Source: a virus
IMG/VR virus record: IMGVR_UViG_3300035698_025380
Span: 1-21,324 of that record
Reading direction: 5' to 3' (one strand)
DNA length: 21,324 nucleotides
The notes beneath the pieces were generated by a model. The model saw nothing but the letters and a program-made list of their open reading frames with translations. It was not told where the DNA came from and did no database searches. This document shows positions 17,844-19,026 of the stretch, one piece after another (the stretch's first letter is position 1; every line of letters starts with the position of its first letter). A program made the position numbers and the translations under genes.

Positions 17844-18200
17844 TTAATAAAACATTAATTTAAGTATTACCCCAACAACGGAGGCAAATATAACAGCTAG
17901 TCCCCCTTCTACCATTCTTTTCCACCTTAATACTCCCATAAATTGATCCAATAATTTTATTCTTTCAGGAGCACAAATTTCTCTAAACTCTTTACTCTTA
18001 TTGGTTTCGACTATTAAACCATTATCGGGATCAAATAATCTTTTTTGAATATTACTAACATCAACTTTCATTTCTTTTTGGACATCTTTAATTTCATTAA
18101 TAGAACTCTCTATTCTAATTATATTACCATTAGGTAAACCCTTTTCTAGACTTTCTATCTTAAGACATAAAGATTCTAATACTTGTTTTTGTGTAGTCAT
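17844..18200 (-). CDS. Coiled-coil protein with C-terminal membrane helix, possible holin (118 aa)
   Basis: A 118-residue protein. Residues 1-55 are coiled coil (QVLESLCLKIESLEKGL, INEIKDVQKEMKVDVSNIQK). A linker follows, then RWKRMVEGG and a single C-terminal membrane helix at about 97-117 (VEGGLAVIFASVVGVILKLM). This layout (cytoplasmic coiled coil, basic flank, one C-terminal span) is that of the XhlA-type haemolysin/holin helpers, which are usually somewhat shorter. Holin is therefore a plausible but unproven role. A partial lysozyme-like gene lies about 3 kb upstream. A candidate late promoter ends 17 nt before its ATG, and the tmRNA terminator lies just upstream. It could instead be a tail or membrane-anchoring protein. 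Confidence 0.6.
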   Translation of the reverse strand: MTTQKQVLESLCLKIESLEKGLPNGNIIRIESSINEIKDVQKEMKVDVSNIQKRLFDPDNGLIVETNKSKEFREICAPERIKLLDQFMGVLRWKRMVEGGLAVIFASVVGVILKLMFY

Positions 18201-18226: not shown

Positions 18227-18259
18227 AAAAAAAGAAGGCAACCCGGGGGTTACCTTCTT
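18227..18259 (-). terminator. Strong intrinsic terminator of the tmRNA gene
   Basis: A 12-bp stem is formed by 18248-18259 and 18232-18243 on the minus strand (AAGAAGGTAACC ... GGTTGCCTTCTT, one G-U pair) with a 4-nt loop. It runs directly into seven or more T residues (18233-18227). It is the clearest rho-independent terminator in the window, at the 3' end of the permuted tmRNA gene. Confidence 0.9.
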
Positions 18260-18263
18260 CTAA

Positions 18264-18497
18264 TTTTGAACTTTAACGATACGATTGTTTCCAACCTTGC
18301 CCTATTAATACCGTTGGGTCAGGGTGCCTCTCAGGCAGCCATCGCCATATTCACTGTTTCGTCATTTAGACGTTGTTGATCTTCTTTACATCCTTATCCT
18401 CCGGTCAATTCCAAGTCACCCCCATATTTTTATAACATAGTGGAGGTGGAGGGGGTCGAACCCTCGTGTCGTTAGGTAGTAATGCACGTACTTGCGA
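18264..18497 (-). ncRNA. ssrA: Circularly permuted (two-piece) tmRNA gene
   Basis: On the minus strand the 3' tRNA half comes first. A T-arm GAGGG-TTCGACC-CCCTC (18465-18449) is followed by the acceptor strand CACCTCC (18448-18442) and discriminator A (18441). After a 17-nt spacer comes the 5' half, GGGGGTG (18423-18417), which pairs with CACCTCC over all seven positions. The only wobble is G3-U70, the alanine identity pair of tmRNA. Next come a degenerate D-arm, GACTTGGAATTGACCGG (compare 'TGGATTCGAC' of standard tmRNA), and a tag frame NDETVNMAMAA-stop (18366-18331) whose stop sits in a TGCCT/AGGCA hairpin (18325-18337). GNRA-hairpin and pseudoknot-like sequence follow, then the terminator. 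CCA is not encoded (CTA instead). A possible P2 helix joins AGGATGTAA (18386-18394) with TTACTACCT (18474-18482). Outer ends are approximate. It rescues stalled ribosomes and tags the nascent peptide. Confidence 0.87.
18331..18366 (-). other. tmRNA tag-peptide reading frame
   Basis: The frame AAT GAC GAA ACA GTG AAT ATG GCG ATG GCT GCC TGA encodes NDETVNMAMAA. With the alanine carried by tmRNA the tag would be ANDETVNMAMAA, close in form to E. coli AANDENYALAA and ending in the Ala-Ala expected for ClpXP recognition. The resume codon is uncertain: CTA or AAT fit the frame, and there is no GCN codon at the expected place. Confidence 0.7.
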
Positions 18498-18502
18498 TCA
18501 CC

Positions 18503-18705: not shown

Positions 18706-19026
18706 TTATTTTTTCTTTTTGGGAATATCTTTGGGGTATGTTTTATAATATTCTTTCCAATATTTTTCCTCAAGCTTCTCCATATTTTGTTTATCATCCT
18801 TAGTAATCCTCTTTTTTCGCCCATTTTCTTGATATTTGGGTTCTTTTAATTTCTCCAGCTTAATATATAAGGTTTCCAATTTATTATAAGTAATACCTAC
18901 ATTCTCACATTTCCAAAAACCATTAGGGTTCTTATTAACATCGAAATGGTATTCCCAATCCCCATAACATCTAATATACTTTGTGGGGGCCACATCATCT
19001 CTTTCTTTAGGTCTTCCTCTGCTCAT
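18706..19026 (-). CDS. Small basic protein with RGRPK motif (106 aa)
   Basis: A 106-residue protein starting MSRGRPKERDD. RGRP is the core of an AT-hook, so minor-groove DNA binding is conceivable in this AT-rich genome, but one short motif is weak evidence. The middle (YIRCYGDWEYHFDVNKNPNG) looks like a small folded domain with Trp, Tyr and two Cys residues. The C-terminal half is Lys/Glu helical and ends in a basic tail (YPKDIPKKKK). No family is recognised. Its ATG overlaps the TGA of the 599-residue gene by four bases (ATGA), so the two are translationally coupled and may work together. Confidence 0.6.
   Translation of the reverse strand: MSRGRPKERDDVAPTKYIRCYGDWEYHFDVNKNPNGFWKCENVGITYNKLETLYIKLEKLKEPKYQENGRKKRITKDDKQNMEKLEEKYWKEYYKTYPKDIPKKKK

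Follow-up and report, generated by a model that had tools for sequence, protein, structure and literature searches.

Permuted, two-piece transfer-messenger RNAs (tmRNAs) are known from bacteriophages as well as from bacteria. In 2022, that of the Methylophilales phage Melnitz was reported together with 53 unique phage two-piece tmRNAs (Buchholz et al., PMC9004378). Melnitz and the Pelagibacter phage Mosig are both T4-like marine phages, and the Melnitz gene is of alphaproteobacterial descent, is under a glutamine riboswitch and lies near an early promoter (PMC9004378). The gene described here resides on a 21.3-kilobase (kb) phage contig from IMG/VR (IMGVR_UViG_3300035698_025380), all 21,324 nucleotides (nt) of which were analyzed and are called the window below. 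It occupies 18500-18230 on the minus strand, in a noncoding stretch between small genes at 18706-19026 and 17844-18200, and encodes a permuted tmRNA that, in contrast to that of Melnitz, follows a late-type box and has a Bacteroidota-like sequence. An original prediction, made from the sequence of the window, had presented a compact permuted tmRNA with its own late-type promoter and terminator in a phage tail/lysis neighborhood as apparently new. Permuted tmRNAs of phages were in fact already known, not only from the work on Melnitz but also from GenBank annotations, and a search of IMG/VR for the permuted core found 66 viral contigs that match the strict pattern.

Judged from its sequence and its relatives, the permuted, two-piece-type gene is real and more than a product of chance. 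The coordinates, the 17-nt spacer and the seven acceptor pairs with G3-U70 as the sole wobble were all correct on direct reading. The Rfam family RF04321 (tmRNA_permuted), with a gathering score of 47 bits, matches 18486-18331(-) at 52.0 bits (E = 8.9e-8, 4227 families), and the window displays the features of its members, with the acceptor 3′ piece encoded before the 5′ piece, a short spacer and a tag with a small/hydrophobic end and a stop. Relatives from the same clade score 62-71 bits and Pseudomonadota genes 113-162, and the window thus lies far from the center of the family. The standard tmRNA model, RF00023, does not report the window at its gathering score, and the permuted relatives reach 14-31 bits against 47. 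ARAGORN misses the gene at default settings; with a lowered threshold, it calls a permuted tmRNA with the expected tag, DETVNMAMAA*, plus one spurious gene on the opposite strand, and at very low thresholds its calls are mostly noise. In program checks of the kind proposed in the original prediction, the merged Rfam family and the relaxed ARAGORN search recovered the gene, and the alphaproteobacterial, betaproteobacterial and cyanobacterial models and the default ARAGORN search did not.

The comparison with related phages provides the decisive evidence. Five of the contigs that match the core pattern (L039, L058, L062, L068 and L069) also encode the tail and lysis neighbors found in the window, and two more (L095 and L105) were found through a neighboring HD-domain gene. 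When a covariance model was trained on six relatives, with the window excluded, its only match in the window was exactly 18500-18331, at 119.8 bits (E = 2e-27). None of 200 shuffled sequences has a fold as low as that of 18500-18225, which lies 3.06 standard deviations below the shuffles. In an alignment of 170-174 nt from seven phages (the window, members of the L039/L058/L062/L068/L069 group, and L095 and L105), a five-helix structure has 93.7% of its cells paired, with changes on both sides in 13 of 30 pairs, the kind of compensatory change that the original prediction had posed as a test. The covariation score was not reached by any of 500 shuffles, and the result is unchanged when the window is omitted. 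A one-base shift of the partner strand reduces pairing to about 50%; since these same sequences were used in drawing the structure by eye, this control is biased in its favor, but the shuffles and the window-free model are independent of that. In the acceptor stem, L095 and L105 share a compensatory change from G-C to A-U, and G3-U70 never varies across the seven phages. The RF04321 score, which barely exceeds its cut-off, and the default ARAGORN failure might raise the suspicion of a chance fold or of a degenerate, nonfunctional remnant. Against the window-free score, the covariation both with and without the window, and the intact tag and terminator, this explanation is scarcely credible, as the original prediction had also judged of chance.

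What the original prediction missed is that the gene bears Bacteroidota-type signatures and does not fit the models of the lineages in which permuted tmRNAs are usually found. None of the alphaproteobacterial, betaproteobacterial and cyanobacterial models (RF01849, RF01850 and RF01851) has a match at its cut-off in the window; the best in the clan, beta_tmRNA, gives 29.5 bits for the window and 45.8-53.3 for the clade relatives, with a cut-off of 84. The D-loop reads TTGAC, without the usual C, in 7/7 clade members and in 60/65 standard tmRNAs of Bacteroidota. This motif, which was outside the resume/tag search pattern, occurs in none of eight non-Bacteroidota standard genes with the same resume motif and in none of 30 Pseudomonadota permuted loci. 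The resume context AACTGGCGAA is found in the six relatives (as AACAGGCGAA in L069), and their tags are GEQVELAMAA or GEQVEMAMAA; the window itself has AAATGACGAA, and its tag ends in AMAA, like many Bacteroidota tags. The genomes retrieved by a scan for AACTGGCGAA followed by AMAA were mainly from Bacteroidota, a few being from Chloroflexota and other groups, and ARAGORN assigned the matches to 74 standard genes and two doubtful permuted ones, both beside standard genes. With the window-free model, permuted genes of Bacteroidota phages (L055, L014, L294 and L279) score 43-74 bits, compared to 21-31 for Pseudomonadota genes, the exception being two crAss-like genes with only 21-27 bits.

Among the window's genes are those for baseplate wedge proteins and an M15-type endolysin, which bears out the tail/lysis neighborhood originally predicted. 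By baseplate protein, the closest cultured phages are Flavobacterium phage immuto and Microcystis phage Mel-JY01, both at 47%, and the order of the tail-module genes is common to the window and these phages. Neither immuto nor Mel-JY01 has a permuted tmRNA over the cut-off; a match of 15.9 bits at position 57018 of Mel-JY01 is spurious, as it falls within a helicase gene. A direct megablast of the window against phage records gave no match, and no relatives were found in IMG/VR through a neighboring protein of 599 amino acids. In the relatives that carry it, the tmRNA is located upstream of the same tail/lysis module. Shine-Dalgarno sites are nearly absent from the window (2/18 genes), and a near-lack of such sites is usual for Bacteroidota. 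From these sequence comparisons, the phage appears to be a T4-like tailed phage related to immuto, with a host that is probably a member of the Bacteroidota. We are fairly confident that the gene represents a functional permuted tmRNA of such a phage and belongs to a separate tmRNA lineage carried by Bacteroidota phages.

The clade's permuted lineage, present in several kinds of Bacteroidota phages, appears by sequence to be closer to the one-piece tmRNA of Bacteroidota than to the permuted tmRNA of alphaproteobacteria, which suggests a separate permutation event. Independent permutation is therefore plausible, but not proven. Several points weigh against this picture of lineage and host. The tag context of the window, TAAAT-GAC-GAA, has drifted from AACTGGCGAA. 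A rotated-sequence tree of 74 columns places most clade members among Bacteroidota genes with weak support, and it contains neither cellular cyanobacterial permuted genes nor identified betaproteobacterial ones. In the approximately unbiased (AU) test, grouping with the Pseudomonadota permuted genes just escapes rejection (p = 0.051), as does strict grouping with the Bacteroidota standard genes (p = 0.061). The likeness in D-loop and tag could stem not from descent but from adaptation to a Bacteroidota host. L058, L069 and L105 have more Shine-Dalgarno sites, and the hosts may thus differ; Mel-JY01 is listed from a cyanobacterium, which makes the host uncertain. Finally, the nearest relatives of the window (L079, L085 and L089) have no copy in the available contigs.

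Alternatively, the phages might have taken up a permuted tmRNA from proteobacteria or cyanobacteria, the D-loop and tag being adapted later to the SmpB, synthetase and proteases of the host. Those groups are otherwise the main known carriers of the permuted order, Melnitz carries an alphaproteobacterial gene across hosts, the best clan model is the betaproteobacterial one, and a single origin is what the AU test failed to reject at the 5% level. However, the lineage-specific scores remain below their cut-offs, and the TTCGA of the TTCGACC loop found here is missing from the alphaproteobacteria-type T-loops sampled among Pseudomonadota. The absence of the TTGAC D-loop from the Pseudomonadota loci also speaks against uptake, as do features common to several unrelated types of Bacteroidota phages, and we regard this route as unlikely. 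We tentatively put forward a fourth independent origin of permuted tmRNA, derived from the Bacteroidota tmRNA and borne by phages instead of their hosts. The permutation might even have occurred in place, because two related phages have one-piece genes at the equivalent spot.

These phages, L112 (6818-7167) and L154 (6932-7300), carry a one-piece tmRNA that precedes the same HD-domain gene by about 2.8 kb, and that of L154 has an unusually long tag of 23 residues. The R1 matches in both correspond to the T-arms of these standard genes, and weak R1 matches in L133, L088, L142 and L100 were judged to be tRNA arrays or chance. In L133, a related phage, tRNA-like pieces with the common end AGGTTCGAATCCTGTCCTGACTAC are repeated at 400-900. 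A tmRNA conserved throughout the family was rejected, since over the cut-off it is permuted in only 5/50 contigs and standard in 2/50, the contigs being fragments. In a tree of the HD-domain gene, the permuted copies form a cluster of seven, including one member with no detected copy, with the window on a separate branch. Because this branch stands apart and the nearest relatives have no copy, gain, loss or exchange of the tmRNA would appear to be frequent.

A permuted copy over the cut-off was found in 1/395 Bacteroidota genomes (1/199 in its family). This copy, in genome G294 (L279, L292 and L293; near position 986 kb of contig C1), has the tag GKVIQMNNAPVRLAA and lies beside genes for RIIA, DNA polymerase, helicase and integrase, while the host's own standard tmRNA is on another contig. 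Nine lower-scoring Bacteroidota matches turned out on inspection to be standard genes. A permuted gene belonging to the host itself is thus unsupported, as the sole case is located in a prophage and the standard gene of the host is separate. Hosts in the Bacteroidota thus rely on one-piece tmRNA, and two-piece genes occur in some of their phages. Two other viral permuted tmRNAs, L055 (430-700) and L014 (300-500), are mutually close in the clade model, and the prophage copy in G294 has a tag region that matches that of L055 (GKVI...APVRLAA). For the viral permuted tmRNAs L017, L024, L027, L041 and L057, the predicted tags have about 26-33 residues, far above the usual length.

On the minus strand, the box comes first, followed by UGAUC, helix strands, the T-arm, the acceptor 3′ strand with its A, and the spacer. 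Next come the acceptor 5′ strand GGGGGUG, UUGAC, helix strands, the tag frame UAAAU-GAC-GAA...GCC-UGA, the stop-codon hairpin and the terminator. In the seven-phage alignment, the outer helix, made from UGAUC (18500-18496, the putative 5′ end of the RNA) and GAUCA (18381-18377), is 100% paired and includes a compensatory change from U-A to C-G. Helix 2, which is P2-like, pairs 18488-18481 with 18392-18385 and has changes on both sides in 6/8 pairs. Helix 3 (18476-18472 with 18402-18398) is the weakest, with 75.8% of cells paired and changes on both sides in 3/5 pairs, and the window carries two mismatches there. The T-arm at 18465-18449, supported by sequence and Rfam, has the stem GAGGG/CCCTC (18465-18461/18453-18449), with compensatory changes in two pairs, and the loop TTCGACC. 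The acceptor strands are supported by sequence, Rfam and alignment. The 3′ strand, CACCTCC (18448-18442), is followed by the discriminator A18441, the two together spanning 18448-18441, and then by CTA, so that CCA is not encoded. After the 17-nt spacer (18440-18424), which is similarly short in the aligned relatives, the 5′ strand GGGGGTG (18423-18417) forms 7/7 pairs, with the wobble between G3 (18421) and U70 (18444). Comparison of D-loops identifies ATTGAC at 18409-18404 as a D-loop remnant of the Bacteroidota type, without the C. The tag frame, GAC...TGA (18363-18331), was read from the sequence and from the relaxed ARAGORN call, and the P5-like hairpin at its stop codon, UGCCU-GAG-AGGCA (18337-18325), is paired in 100% of cells across the seven phages, with one change from C-G to U-A. 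Terminator analysis places an intrinsic terminator with a 14-base-pair stem and a T run at 18261-18230.

Ahead of the gene is a promoter-like box, TATATTTATA (18512-18503), read from the sequence and kept at its position in the aligned clade members. It ends 2 nt before the presumed RNA 5′ end, and the same box precedes tail genes in the window phage and its relatives. Over the whole AT-rich window, the 8-mer ATATTTAT shows no enrichment, with 11 occurrences against an expected 10.3. The terminator and the conserved box proposed in the original prediction are thus in place, while the label "late promoter" derives from the position and conservation of the box and is best taken as putative.

A single transcript would start near 18500 and end near 18230. 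It would have little or no leader, because the RNA seems to start right behind the box and its first five bases are already paired with the coding piece. The tRNA-trimming RNases of the host would then excise the spacer, RNase P cutting 5′ of G18423 and a 3′ nuclease acting after A18441, leaving two pieces held together by the acceptor stem and helices 1-3. Once the host had added CCA, alanyl-tRNA synthetase would charge the RNA via G3-U70, and host SmpB and EF-Tu would deliver it to stalled ribosomes. No SmpB was found in the 23 phage records examined, many of which are fragments. The tag, (A)DETVNMAMAA, with the alanine from the tRNA part coming first, would direct the stalled product to host proteases. 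The likely use would be to keep up ribosome turnover late in infection. We infer the two-piece processing, the role in late infection and all other steps after transcription from the sequence. The RNA might instead be mainly a decoy: by sequestering host SmpB or EF-Tu, it would inhibit trans-translation in the host and not contribute to rescue, as could be argued from the part of PMC4131195 cited in its favor and from phages without an SmpB of their own. A decoy would have no need for a tag frame ending in AMAA or for a stop codon in frame within a conserved hairpin, both of which are kept across the clade, and we consider this role improbable.

Should the lineage be upheld, permuted tmRNA would have at least one origin beyond the three bacterial lineages usually cited, and this extra origin would lie in viruses whose hosts retain the one-piece form. 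Hosts that do not make a two-piece tmRNA would then still be able to process and use one, which would allow a direct test of the processing enzymes required. One phage family offers both gene orders at an equivalent genomic place.

Among described permuted tmRNAs, the clade model gives 40 bits for that of Mosig, compared to 162 for the window, which is itself included in that model. Chryseobacterium phage MA9V-3 (L294, 2436-2794) and the crAss-like phages cr125_1 (L295, 2436-2885) and cr10_1 (L296, 2438-2823) are Bacteroidota phages whose tmRNAs are also permuted, with R1 matches of 22.5-58.8 bits. Their records annotate only SsrA and are silent on the permutation. cr10_1 and cr125_1 share the Bacteroidota-type D-loop with the window, but all three differ from it in a longer spacer, in tags that begin with GN and in belonging to unrelated phage families. 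The alphaproteobacterial, betaproteobacterial and cyanobacterial permuted tmRNAs, merged in RF04321, resemble the window gene in gene order and in the anatomy of the tRNA domain, and it passes the cut-off of the merged family; it falls short of the separate lineage models and has another D-loop and, relative to the alpha-type genes sampled, another T-loop. With the one-piece tmRNA of Bacteroidota, the clade shares the D-loop TTGACAG, and the relatives of the window also share the resume sequence AACTGGCGAA and tags of the form GE...AMAA; the one-piece genes are unpermuted and longer (about 360-400 nt). No paper describing a Bacteroidota-type permuted lineage was found in the library searched, and the supplements of PMC11915505 and PMC9004378 may list members. 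Permuted tmRNA in phages is thus known as such, and it is the Bacteroidota-type lineage that looks new, although members of it are annotated in GenBank.
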